From an uncultured Trueperaceae bacterium (GTDB lineage Bacteria; Deinococcota; Deinococci; Deinococcales; Trueperaceae): a DNA stretch of 64,000 nt. The position numbers and the translations under genes were made by a program. Shown here piece after piece: positions 33,988-38,910 of this stretch. The notes beneath the pieces were generated by a model. The model made no database searches. It worked only from the letters and a program-made list of their open reading frames with translations, and had not been told where the DNA came from. Within the stretch, counting starts at the first letter, position 1. Each line of letters starts with the position of its first letter. The stretch lies in contig CALMXZ010000011.1 in the NCBI GenBank assembly GCA_937873495.1, forward strand, positions 1 to 64,000. The letters are read 5' to 3'.

Positions 33988-35025
33988 TCAAGCCGCCGGG
34001 CGCCGCGCGAACCCGAGGTACTCCTCCAGCTTGGCGAGCGCCGCCCCGCTGTCCAGCGCTTCCGTGGCGAGCGCGACGCCTTCCGCCAACGTGCCGGCGC
34101 GCTCGGCGAGGTAGAGCGCGGCCCCGGCGTTGAAGAGCGTCACGTCGCGCATCCCCGCGCCGGCCTCGCCCGCGAGCACGGCCCGCAGGTGCCGGGCGTT
34201 CGTGGCCGGGTCGCCGCCCGCGAAGCTCGACAGCGGGTGCCGGCCGAGGCCGACCTCCTCGGGCGTGATCACGTAGGTCGTCAGGCTGCCGTCCTCGGCG
34301 AGCTCCGTCACCTTGCTCGGACCCGTAACGGTGAAGTCGTCGATGACGTCGCCATGCACGACGAGCGCGCGCTTCAACCCAAGGCCGCGCAGCACGGCCG
34401 CCAAGGTCTCGGTGAGACGCGGGTCGTACACGCCCATGAGCTGGCGGTCGGCGCCGGCCGGGTTGGTGAGCGGGCCGAGGTTATTGAAGATGGTGCGGGC
34501 CTGCAGGTCGGCACGGATGGGCGCGACGAACCCCATGGCCGGATGGAACCGCCGCGCGAAGATGAACGCCATGCCGGTGGCCGCGACCGACTCGGCCAGG
34601 CGCTCGGGGCTGGCGTCCAGGTCCGCGCCGAGCTCTGCCAGGACGTTGGCGGAACCCGACTTGCGCGTCACGCCGACGTTGCCGTGCTTGGCCAGGCGCG
34701 CGCCGCCCGCGGCGGCGACGAACATGGCCGTCGTGCTTATGTTGATCGTGTCGACGCCCGTGCCGCCGGTGCCGCAGGTGTCGACCAACGGTCCGTCGAC
34801 CTTCACCGGGATCCTGATGGCGCGCGCGCGCATGGCCTCCGCGAAGCCCGTGATCTCCTCGACGGTCTCGCCGCGCATGCGCAGCGCCGCCAACAGGGCC
34901 GACGCCTGCACCTGCGAGAGCTGCCCGTCCATGAGTCGGCCGAGGACGTCCCTCGCCATCTGCCTGTCGAGCGTCTCGCCGTCGAAGATCCGGTTGAGAA
35001 GCTCCCCGATCGGTAGTCCAGTCAT
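33988..35025 (-). CDS. trpD: anthranilate phosphoribosyltransferase
   Basis: Second step of tryptophan synthesis, joining anthranilate to PRPP; 345 residues. Motifs: the PRPP loop DTCGTGGTGVDTINIST, KHGNVGVTRKSGSANVLAELG, and the catalytic-site GPLTNPAG and HGDVIDDF region. ATG at 35025 overlaps the stop of the inserted glycosyltransferase gene by four bases, so trpD translation is coupled to it. It is the last gene of the trpL-E-G-GT-D operon; trpC, trpF, trpB and trpA are not in the window. Confidence 0.95.
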   Translation of the reverse strand: MTGLPIGELLNRIFDGETLDRQMARDVLGRLMDGQLSQVQASALLAALRMRGETVEEITGFAEAMRARAIRIPVKVDGPLVDTCGTGGTGVDTINISTTAMFVAAAGGARLAKHGNVGVTRKSGSANVLAELGADLDASPERLAESVAATGMAFIFARRFHPAMGFVAPIRADLQARTIFNNLGPLTNPAGADRQLMGVYDPRLTETLAAVLRGLGLKRALVVHGDVIDDFTVTGPSKVTELAEDGSLTTYVITPEEVGLGRHPLSSFAGGDPATNARHLRAVLAGEAGAGMRDVTLFNAGAALYLAERAGTLAEGVALATEALDSGAALAKLEEYLGFARRPAA

Positions 35026-35858
35026 CTCGTAGGTCCTGCTCCTTCCGCCAGCGCGCGCCGCGCGGCTTCGGCGTACGCTCGCTCGTACCGGTAATGGGCG
35101 TCGTCCCAGAACGGCCTGGCGGCCGCGGAGAGCAGCGCCCTCTTCAGGGCGAGCGACAGTGGGTGGACGCCGAGGGCAAGGGCGACGTCGCGCCGCGGGT
35201 GCTTGCGCCAGACGCGCACGTGCGCGGCCCCGGCCGAACCGGCCTTGGCCTCGAGGTCGTCCAGGAACCCTTCGTCCCAATGCTCGACGAGCACCTCCGG
35301 CAGCAGCTCGAACACAGCGCCCGCCGCCTTGAGGCGCAGCGCGAGGTCCGGGTCTTCGCCCCCGTAGGACGAGAAGGTCGTGTCGTAGCCGCCGACCTGC
35401 CAGAACAGGGCGGCGGGGACGCTAAGCGAGCGGCTCACGACGTTCCACCAGCCGCGCACGACCTTGAGCGTCCAGCCCCTGCTCAAGTGCTCGGGGAGCG
35501 CCTCGCGGCTCAAGCCCACCCGCAGCGGCGCCTTGTGGAGGGCGAGGTTGGCCGCCAGCCAGCCGGGGCGCGGGATGACGTCGTCGTCGCTGAAGAGCAG
35601 GATCGCGCCACGCGCAACGCGCGCGCCCTGGTTGCGGGCGAAGGCGGCGTGCCTGCCGGGCGTCGTCAGCCAGGAGAGGCCGTAGGGCGGCTGGTAACGG
35701 GCAAGGAACCGCTCCGTGCCGTCGCTGCAGCCGTCGGCGACCACGATCACCTCGAAGTCGACGCTCTCCCCCTCCAACGCGCGCAGCTTGCGTTCGAGCA
35801 GTGCGCGCCGGTCGTGGGTCGGAACGACCACGGAGACGGCTGGGACGGCTCCGCTCAC
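35022..35858 (-). CDS. family 2 glycosyltransferase located inside the trp operon
   Basis: 278 residues, GT-A fold. SVVVPTHDRRALLERKLRAL is the first strand-helix, VVADGCSDGTERFL binds the nucleotide, FSDDDVIPRPGWL carries the DxD-type metal site, and VGGYDTTFSSYGGEDPDLALRLKAAG gives the ED motif. There is no signal peptide or obvious membrane helix. It starts four bases after trpG and overlaps trpD by four, so it is a full member of the trp operon. No trp-related function is known for this family; the acceptor is unknown. Confidence 0.88.
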   Translation of the reverse strand: MSGAVPAVSVVVPTHDRRALLERKLRALEGESVDFEVIVVADGCSDGTERFLARYQPPYGLSWLTTPGRHAAFARNQGARVARGAILLFSDDDVIPRPGWLAANLALHKAPLRVGLSREALPEHLSRGWTLKVVRGWWNVVSRSLSVPAALFWQVGGYDTTFSSYGGEDPDLALRLKAAGAVFELLPEVLVEHWDEGFLDDLEAKAGSAGAAHVRVWRKHPRRDVALALGVHPLSLALKRALLSAAARPFWDDAHYRYERAYAEAARRALAEGAGPTR

Positions 35859-35861
35859 GCC

Positions 35862-36463
<602 letters not shown>

Positions 36464-36464
<1 letters not shown>

Positions 36465-37918
36465 CAGCCCAGCCCCCTCGTCGCCATCTCGACGGCGCGC
36501 CGCAACGCGGCCAGCTTGTTCATACACTCCTGCCACTCCGCGGCGGGGTCGGAGTCGGCGACGACGCCGGCGCCGGCTTGCAGGTGGATGCGCCCGTCCT
36601 TCACGACCATGGTGCGAAGCGTGAGGGCCATGTCCATGGCGCCGCCGGCGGCCAGGTAGCCGAAGGCGCCGGCGTACGGTCCGCGCCGCACCGTCTCGAG
36701 CTCGTCGATGATCTCCATGGCGCGCACCTTGGGGGCGCCGGAGGCGGTGCCCATCGGCAACGTGGCCGAGAGGGCGTCGAGGGGCGTACGGCCGGGCGCC
36801 AGCCGCCCCACGACCTCGGAGACGATGTGCATGACGTGGCTGTAGCGCTCGACGCGCATGAGGTCGACGACCTCGACGCTCCCCGGCGCGCTGACCCGGC
36901 CGAGGTCGTTGCGGCCCAGGTCGACGAGCATCACGTGTTCGGCGCGCTCCTTCTCGTCGGCCAGCAGCTCCGTGGCCAGCGCATCGTCGTGCGCGGCGTC
37001 GCGACCGCGCGGGCGCGTGCCGGCGATGGGCAGGGTCTCGACCCGCGTGCCGTCGGAGCGCACGAGGCTCTCGGGGCTGCTGGCCACGAGCGTCACGCCC
37101 CCGAGGTCGAGGTAGCCGAGGTAGGGGCTGGGGTTGATGGTGCGCAGCGCCCGGTAGATGGCGAACGGGTGGGCGCCGAGGTCCGCGGACAGGCGGACGC
37201 TCGGCACGACCTGGAAGACGTCGCCTGCGTGGATGTACTCGACGGCGCGCGTGACCGCCGCCATGTACTCCTCGCGCGACAGGCTGGGCTCGAACTCCAC
37301 GAGCCGCCCGGCGCGGTCGCCCGGTACACCAGGCAACGGCCCGCGCAGGCGGTCGTAGGCGGCGTCCACCAGCGCGGAGGCCCTGGCGGCGTCCGCGGCG
37401 TCGCCGACCTCGGCCGGCGCGACGATGAACAGCCGGCGCTTGAGGTGGTCGAACACGACCACGAGCTCCGGCTCGATGAAGAGCATGTCCGGCGCGCCGA
37501 TGACGTCGGGGTTGGCGTCAGGCAGGCGTTCGTACTGGCGCACGAGGTCGTAGCCGGCGTAGCCGACCGCGCCTGCCCAGAAGGGCGGCAGGTCGGGCGC
37601 CGGGCGCGTCTCGCGCACGACCTCGTCCCACATGATGCGCAGGGGGTCCGAGCTCGTGACGACGCTGGTGCCCGTCGGCCGCGTCAGGGTCACCTGATCG
37701 CCCCGCGCCTCCACGCGCAGTCGCTGGCCGGTGCCGATGAACGAGTAGCGCGCGACGCGCTCGCCCTGTTCGACGCTCTCGAGGAGGAAGGACGGGTGGC
37801 CTGCCAGCTTCAGGTAGGCGGTCAGGGGCGTCTCGAGGTCCGCCAGGACCTCGCGGTAGATGGGCTCGATGGGTGCGCGGCGGCTGAGCACAGCCTCACC
37901 CGCTTCAGGTAGGTGCAT
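36464..37918 (-). CDS. trpE: anthranilate synthase component I
   Basis: Chorismate-to-anthranilate subunit, 484 residues. The N-terminal domain contains FLLESVEQGERVARYSFIG, the Trp feedback-binding region. The chorismate-binding domain has IHAGDVFQVVPSVRLS, PIAGTRPRGRD, LVDLGRNDLGRV and PMGTASGAPKVRAMEII, plus YAGAFGYLA near the end. A short GGAG precedes the ATG. Expression is predicted to be controlled by the leader peptide and hairpins immediately upstream. Confidence 0.95.
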
Positions 37919-37950
37919 GGACGACTCCGTTCGTGGACGATCCTGGGGAG

Positions 37951-38009
37951 GCGCGCTGCCGGTCAGGGCCAGGGCAGTCGCGCGGTGGACGGCAGGTTCA
38001 GTGCTGCCG
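37951..38009 (-). promoter_or_regulatory. trp attenuator: mutually exclusive hairpins between trpL and trpE
   Basis: Read on the minus strand, four segments occur. Segment 1 is CGGCAG (38004-38009, leader codons 15-16) and segment 2 is CTGCCG (37990-37995). Segment 3 is GCGCG-A-CTGCC (37973-37983) and segment 4 is GGCAGCGCGC (37951-37960). Segments 3 and 4 form a 10-bp terminator stem with one bulge and a 12-base loop, without a U-run. Segment 2 can pair six bases with segment 1 or with CGGCAG of segment 4, so 2:4 pairing would block the terminator. A ribosome stalled at the Trp codons covers segment 1 and frees 2:4; a ribosome at the stop codon covers segment 2 and allows 3:4. Confidence 0.7.
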
Positions 38010-38051
38010 CCATCGCCAGGTGGTTCCCGTCCGACGGTGGAGTGGGGTCAT
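37998..38051 (-). CDS. trpL: trp operon leader peptide (17 residues, two Trp)
   Basis: The frame from ATG at 38051 encodes MTPLHRRTGTTWRWRQH and stops at 37998. Trp is the rarest residue, yet codons 12 and 14 are both TGG, directly upstream of trpE and of alternative hairpins. That is the layout of an attenuator sensing tRNA-Trp charging. TATACT lies seven bases before the ATG, so the transcript would begin at, or within a base or two of, the leader start codon. Confidence 0.7.
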   Translation of the reverse strand: MTPLHRRTGTTWRWRQH

Positions 38052-38058
38052 GCGCGTG

Positions 38059-38064
38059 AGTATA
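38059..38064 (-). promoter_or_regulatory. leaderless-type -10 box of the trp operon
   Basis: TATACT on the minus strand, seven bases before trpL and about 140 bases before trpE. No convincing -35 is seen. Confidence 0.6.
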
Positions 38065-38112: not shown

Positions 38113-38910
38113 CTACTCCTTGCCTTGCGGGAGGAAGAGCCCGATGGCGTGGAAGCCGGCGTCGACGTACACGGTCTCGCCCGTGATGCCGCCGCCAAGG
38201 CGGTCGGCGAGCAGCGAGAAGCCGAGGCCGCCCACCTCCTCGTGGTCGATGTTGCGCTTCAGCATCGACATCTCCCCCGCCTGCGAGTAGAGGTCGCCGA
38301 AGCCGGCGATGGACCGCGCCGCGATGGTGCGCACCGGACCGGCGCTGATGGCGTTGACCCTGATGCCCTTGGGGCCCAGGTCGAACGCGAGGTAGCGCAC
38401 GCTCGCCTCCAACGCGGCCTTGGCAACGCCCATCATGTTGTAGTGCGGCACGACGCGTTCGGCCGCCAGGTAGGAGAGCGTGACCACGCTCCCGCCGTCG
38501 GTCATGAGGCGCGCGGCGCGGTTGGTCGTGGCGACGAGCGAGTAGGCGCTCACGTCCATGGCGGTGCGCCAGTCCTCACGCGTCGTCTCGACGAACGGAT
38601 GCTCGAAGGTGGCCGCGGGCGAGTAGGCCAGCGCATGCACGAGGTAGTCGAGCTTGCCGAACTCGCGGCCGACCTTCTCGAACATGGCGTCGATCTGCTC
38701 GTCGCTCCCGACGTCGCACTCGACCAGCAGCGGCGCGTTCAGCCCCTCGGTGAGCTTCTCGAGGGTGGGGCGCAGGCGGTCGGACTGATAGCTGAACGCG
38801 AGGCGCGCGCCGGCGTCGGCCAGTGGCTGCGCTATGGCCCATGCCAAGGAGCGCTGGTTGGCGACGCCCATGACTAGGCCCGTCTTGCCGCTTAGGTCGA
38901 TGGTGTACAT
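38113..38910 (-). CDS. fabI: enoyl-[acyl-carrier-protein] reductase (NADH)
   Basis: Last step of each fatty-acid elongation round; 265 residues. FabI-type SDR motifs: GLVMGVANQRSLAWAIAQPLA for the cofactor, the active-site YNMMGVAKAALE with Tyr-x6-Lys spacing, SYLAAERVVPHY, and ISAGPVRTIAARSI. AGGAG precedes the ATG. It follows the response-regulator gene after 36 bases on the same strand, so they may share a transcript. Confidence 0.95.
   Translation of the reverse strand: MYTIDLSGKTGLVMGVANQRSLAWAIAQPLADAGARLAFSYQSDRLRPTLEKLTEGLNAPLLVECDVGSDEQIDAMFEKVGREFGKLDYLVHALAYSPAATFEHPFVETTREDWRTAMDVSAYSLVATTNRAARLMTDGGSVVTLSYLAAERVVPHYNMMGVAKAALEASVRYLAFDLGPKGIRVNAISAGPVRTIAARSIAGFGDLYSQAGEMSMLKRNIDHEEVGGLGFSLLADRLGGGITGETVYVDAGFHAIGLFLPQGKE

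Follow-up and report, generated by a model that had tools for sequence, protein, structure and literature searches.

A candidate leaderless tryptophan-sensing leader peptide that may control trpE translation in Trueperaceae

The 64,000 nt stretch of DNA analyzed here (hereafter the window) comes from the genome of a member of the Trueperaceae (Deinococcota), and the closest named relatives of its TrpE belong to a Deinococcales MAG of the same genus and to a Trueperaceae MAG. On the minus strand, an enoyl-ACP-reductase-like (fabI-like) gene is followed by a short leader, trpE, trpG, a family-2 glycosyltransferase gene and trpD (Table 1); the glycosyltransferase gene thus sits between trpG and trpD within the trp operon. 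A sequence-only reading of this locus had described a complete trp attenuator, consisting of a 17-codon frame with Trp at codons 12 and 14, a TATACT seven bases before its ATG, four mutually exclusive pairing segments and trpE about 80 bases on. Sequence and translation of the frame agree with this description (M-T-P-L-H-R-R-T-G-T-T-W-R-W-R-Q-H-stop), the TATACT box is present at the described distance and trpE begins 79 bases past the leader stop. As in a classical attenuator, a short ORF with clustered Trp codons lies upstream of a trp gene. Rfam gave no match in the whole window, nor in the leader at a relaxed threshold, and the leader peptides matched no NCBIfam or Pfam family. All claims made below on the Trueperaceae leader are computational.

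Table 1. Features of the trp leader region and of the adjoining genes in the window.
Feature	Position	Strand	Remarks
Enoyl-ACP-reductase-like (fabI-like) gene	38910..38113	-	precedes the leader
-10 box TATACT	38064..38059	-	7 nt upstream of the leader ATG
Leader peptide ORF MTPLHRRTGTTWRWRQH	37998..38051	-	17 codons, Trp codons 12 and 14
Leader head (RNA nt 3-36)	38016..38049	-	predicted pairing with the trpE SD region
Anti-SD ACUCC	38043..38039	-	leader nt 9-13
Core CGA-TGG-CGG	38007..38015	-	Arg-Trp-Arg
Segment 1 UGGCGGCAG	38004..38012	-	5' arm of hairpin 1:2
Segment 2 CUGCCGUCCA	37986..37995	-	3' arm of hairpin 1:2
Hairpin 3:4 GCGCGACUGCC...GGCAGCGCGC	37951..37983	-	without U-tract
Head partner AGGAUCGUCCACGAACGGAGUCGU	37921..37944	-	contains the trpE Shine-Dalgarno (SD)
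trpE SD ACGGAGU	37930..37924	-	
trpE, anthranilate synthase component I	36464..37918	-	start at 37918; Pfam PF04715 and PF00425 (Anth_synt_I_N and Chorismate_bind)
trpG (GATase)	35862..36464	-	Pfam PF00117; start overlaps the trpE stop (ATGA)
Family-2 glycosyltransferase gene	35022..35858	-	between trpG and trpD
trpD, anthranilate phosphoribosyltransferase	33988..35025	-	Pfam PF00591 and PF02885

The leader is not a chance frame, since about 15 Trueperaceae species share the -10 box, the ATG and a Trp-bearing frame before trpE. TATACT followed by ATG after 5 to 8 nt was kept upstream of trpE across Trueperaceae genera with unrelated surroundings, with TAGACT in place of TATACT in two leaders, and the position of this conserved box implies that transcription very probably starts on the A of the leader ATG or directly beside it. 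In the window's genome, TATACT with an ATG within 25 nt had a spacer of 5-9 nt in 30 of 48 instances. Such a peak would follow from frequent leaderless transcription, which in Deinococcus deserti concerns about 60% of genes (PMC9031893). Conserved box and genome-wide peak together support the earlier proposal of a transcript starting at the leader AUG. The view that leaderless attenuation would be unusual did not hold up, given precedents in Sinorhizobium meliloti, where rnTrpL begins with the trpL ATG (PMC7298713), in mycobacteria with their leaderless Cys leaders (PMC4633059, PMC9031893) and in C. glutamicum, where the ilvB leader peptide lacks a ribosome binding site according to a reference cited in PMC4046766. 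Leaderlessness alone is not new.

The 133-nt leader folds with -58.1 kcal/mol (z -2.78), beating 200 of 200 shuffles, and whole Trueperaceae leaders reached a mean fold z of -1.8 (18 species). Classical transcription attenuation, the logic that the four segments had been taken to follow, demands that a ribosome at the Trp codons favors pairing 2:4 and a ribosome at the stop favors a 3:4 terminator. Hairpins 1:2 and 3:4 do exist, but the 2:4 pairing comprises 5 bp only (CUGCC:GGCAG), and hairpin 3:4 is followed by CUCCCCAG with no U-tract and is probably not an intrinsic terminator. In simulations, hairpin 3:4 had a probability of 0.97-0.98 in the window at every ribosome position, Trp or stop, so that a 2:4 antiterminator would never compete with it; in the window's two nearest relatives the probability was 0.90-0.94. 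A terminator disfavored with the ribosome at Trp and favored at the stop was thus not seen in the window leader (0.98 versus 0.98). Searching for a stem plus U-tract between leader and trpE, we found no convincing intrinsic terminator among Trueperaceae leaders: weak or odd candidates occurred in L006, L011, L020 and L031, and the window species and its close relatives L003-L005 yielded none.

Outgroup leaders from Thermaceae and other families of the order (L142-L167) precede the same gene and have a similar promoter-to-ATG spacing, their -10 boxes mostly lying close to the ATG. They are Trp leaders too, ending in tandem Trp codons (WW(W)PG-stop) and carrying strong intrinsic terminators. A terminator-like hairpin was present in 19 of 19 examined. 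When true terminators were used and the RNA under the ribosome was masked, the mean terminator probability was 0.54 with the ribosome at the first Trp codon versus 0.90 at the stop, and switching was strong in several of the 18 simulated leaders. The Thermaceae-type classical attenuator is apparently the ancestral form, a point in favor of the same mechanism in the window. Given the constant 3:4 hairpin without a U-tract and the lack of convincing terminators in the family, we nevertheless consider classical attenuation unlikely here. Of the complete attenuator proposed before, the Trp-codon leader peptide ahead of trpE and two of the hairpins stand, but the terminator is missing and the four-segment logic fails. 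Termination might instead depend on Rho, with a stalled ribosome covering a rut site behind the leader, as has been suggested for mycobacterial cys leaders and as happens in tna. The lack of an intrinsic terminator and C-rich stretches after the leader stop would suit this explanation, but the post-leader region is unconserved and rich in strong hairpins, which makes it a poor Rho-loading site, and we regard Rho-dependent attenuation as quite improbable.

Trueperaceae leaders share a core, W-T-G-x-L-G-R-W-R, that is conserved at the amino-acid level. Among 12 leaders of this WTG class, the T-G-x-L-G codons between the two Trp codons gave pN 0.13 and pS 0.74, and the resulting pN/pS of 0.18 has to be read knowing that selecting for the WTG class itself favors a low ratio. 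Flanking codons gave 0.99 (after the core) and 0.81 (codons 2-5). In 15 leaders chosen by -10 box, ATG and core without the WTG criterion, pN/pS was 0.47, with a bootstrap difference from the post-core codons of -0.81 to -0.26. Unlike the Trueperaceae leaders, the outgroup leaders displayed no amino-acid conservation beyond their Trp codons (pN 0.71 and pS 0.70 before them, ratio about 1.0). Amino-acid conservation alongside synonymous drift is the pattern of an arrest peptide, and the leader peptide is possibly stall-prone.

The core includes CGA-TGG in every retained leader, a set that was itself found by CGATGGC; under an independent pattern permitting any CGN, CGA was present in 11 of 11 trpE leaders, and CGA makes up 4% of the Arg codons in the same trpE genes. 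The tRNA-Arg anticodons of the genome are ACG, CCG, CCT and TCT. No TCG anticodon was found among the tRNAs examined, the remaining tRNAs being of class II length, and CGA is therefore presumably read through inosine wobble by tRNA-Arg(ACG). Such reading of CGA is slow, and Arg-X-Arg resembles known hard-to-translate motifs. In a phylum-wide search for W-T-G-x-x-G-R-W, the in-family matches in leader context were trpE leaders only. Two further in-family matches lay in other sequence, one of them within a long coding frame, and the out-of-family matches, mostly without CGA, look like chance and were set aside.

These features raise the alternative of an arrest peptide of the TnaC kind, in which the nascent W-T-G-x-L-G-R-W-R would stall the ribosome on free Trp or on a state of the peptidyl transferase centre. 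Scarcity at the Trp codons would then be secondary. Between the two Trp codons, the amino acids are conserved even though synonymous change is saturated; this, the invariant CGA-TGG and the Arg-X-Arg likeness all fit. But the window lineage altered W7, L11 and G12, and in the leaders of g15, g8 and g16 nothing but the RWR core remains, which makes the full peptide dispensable. TnaC of the E. coli tna operon likewise exerts peptide-sequence-dependent control tied to tryptophan, but it belongs to a catabolic operon, is Rho-dependent, relies on W12...P24 and has no sequence similarity to the Trueperaceae leader.

A second feature absent, like the peptide conservation, from the earlier reading is a pairing between the head of the leader and the trpE ribosome binding site. 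Minimum-energy folding of many leaders of the family placed their first codons in a helix with this site, for example in L007 (CACUCCUGG with CCAGGAGUG) and also in L008, L009 and L010. Co-variation was tested without an alignment: duplex energies were computed for every leader head and the SD region of the same species and compared with those of all species-swapped combinations, a design that takes account of composition as well as of the SD:anti-SD complementarity common to all species. Own pairs of head (nt 1-30) and SD region averaged -19.6 kcal/mol and swapped pairs -15.8 kcal/mol (permutation P 5e-5). The P value was again 5e-5 with one species per genus, 4e-4 in GC-rich species and 0.003 in the remaining species. 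No signal came from mid-leader regions, from promoter DNA that is not transcribed, from reversed heads or from the head paired with the neighboring 30 nt. With the partner limited to the last 20 nt, the signal weakened to P 0.05, as the SD core varies little between species and the co-varying part reaches to about -30. Head pairing was weak in L011, L017 and L020, and the outgroups displayed a weak head signal too (P 0.03). A conserved pairing of a downstream SD with the leader, as expected of a translational attenuator, is thus found in Trueperaceae.

We simulated the accessibility of the trpE SD per ribosome position across species. Mean accessibility was 0.28 on ribosome-free RNA, 0.39 when a ribosome stood at the first Trp codon and 0.28 with one at the stop; a ribosome at the core only gave 0.27, and core plus a queued ribosome gave 0.40. 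The rise with a ribosome-covered head is modest (P about 0.01 across species). The first Trp is codon 7 in most species, whereas codon 7 encodes Arg in the window species, with Trp at 12 and 14. Here the SD was not predicted to open without a queued ribosome (0.29 to 0.31), and with a queue accessibility was 0.56. A ribosome at codons 12/14 leaves the anti-SD at nt 9-13 free, which is why a queue is needed in the window species.

Taken together, these results lead us to propose that trpE is controlled by translational attenuation through a leaderless Trp-sensing leader peptide and not by transcription termination, a model to which we give an even chance. Transcription would begin at the leader AUG, as the conserved -10 box implies, and a 70S ribosome would load on this 5'-terminal AUG. 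The ribosome would slow down at the core CGA-UGG and stall when Trp-tRNA is scarce, with help from the inefficient wobble reading of CGA and from the nascent chain W-T-G-x-L-G-R, on which the computed selection acts. On a ribosome-free leader, base pairing of the first 30 nt would close the trpE SD region, as the co-variation suggests. A ribosome parked on the leader would cover the head and thereby open the SD, through a stall at codon 7 or through ribosomes queued behind the core; in the window species a second ribosome would probably queue behind the first. A shortage of Trp would thus lead to the production of anthranilate synthase. The queue that the model requires in the window species is its weakest step. 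The same simulated numbers also fit a core stall that keeps trpE closed at high Trp, as the arrest peptide alternative has it: the stall would leave the head free to pair, and the core-only state indeed kept the SD closed (0.27 versus 0.28 for free RNA). Weighed against the altered and reduced cores mentioned above, we rate the TnaC-like reading as somewhat unlikely.

A search of open-licence papers revealed no description of Trueperaceae leaders, and related systems differ in several respects. S. meliloti trpL is also a leaderless Trp leader ORF before trpE whose transcript starts at the AUG, but it has consecutive Trp codons and acts through a transcription terminator, at which the sRNA rnTrpL is released (PMC7298713), whereas the Trueperaceae leader has spaced Trp codons, no terminator and a peptide conserved between them. 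A 2005 prediction already listed terminator-less candidate leader peptides of mycobacterial cys operons (PMC1262725). As far as described in PMC4633059 and in PMC9031893, which cites Canestrari et al., 2020, mycobacterial polycysteine sORFs are leaderless, carry codons for the pathway product, lack an obvious terminator and control downstream translation; they use a run of cysteine codons rather than tryptophan. In erm/cat-type translational attenuators, a stall in the leader ORF also exposes a sequestered SD, but induction is by drugs and the anti-SD normally lies in a local hairpin, whereas the Trueperaceae anti-SD would lie in the leader's own first codons, about 100 nt away. What is new is that a leaderless start occurs together with conservation in the core of the peptide, with CGA-UGG and with a predicted second role of the head as anti-SD.

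Among the genomes compared, this predicted leader type was found only in Trueperaceae, and comparison with related families suggests that the Trueperaceae leader changed its kind. In the TrpE tree, leaders of the WTG type are scattered across the crown branches with the window lineage nested inside, and the WTG class is therefore probably ancestral in these branches. The window copy is derived, having lost W7 and gained W12. That the lineage merely inherited the element and no longer regulates with it appears barely plausible to us. W7 was lost, and other lineages lost the leader or all of its Trp codons, but position 12 acquired a Trp codon, CGA-TGG-CGN was retained, and three species with differing upstream sequence have almost the same leader and promoter. 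Control by codon counting has its textbook example in Trp attenuation, and the family comparison suggests that one lineage retained the leader while changing how it works, with SD sequestration replacing the terminator and a selected peptide replacing bare Trp codons. The conversion of one attenuator type into another thereby becomes testable, as does the question whether leaderless initiation and a rare inosine-read codon can be parts of a metabolite sensor. The further-reaching idea, that Trueperaceae swapped a terminator attenuator for a leaderless arrest-peptide switch, stalling at an inosine-decoded CGA and then UGG and using its first codons as trpE anti-SD, is conceivable but doubtful.

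Several lineages depart from the common arrangement, and those of g4, g8 and g15 described next count against the proposed model. The leader seems to have been lost in g4 (L018, L023-L027, L030) and in part of g8 (L015, L019), where no leader was found and trpE directly follows the fabI-like gene. In L013 (G038, a 2.1 Mb genome), a TATACT-N7-ATG leader, MCSRSFCTGFLHS, lies 320 nt upstream of trpE and has no Trp codon; it is probably a decayed WTG leader (W to C). At the g15 loci L029, L172 and L173, a leader-like ORF carries a single Trp within an E-R-W-R-R core. Its start codon and the stop of the fabI-like gene before it overlap (GTGA/ATGA), which would make its translation coupled and not leaderless. 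Outside the phylum, two Rhodocyclales peptides upstream of trpE (L103, MTPLHHWNIELRWRRWRP, and L107, MTTSRLWNEWQGWRRWRP; W...WRRWRP) have a Trp spacing like that of the Trueperaceae peptide. We discarded these betaproteobacterial leaders as relatives, as they have no -10 box beside the ATG and no CGA-TGG, and their likeness is probably due to convergence.
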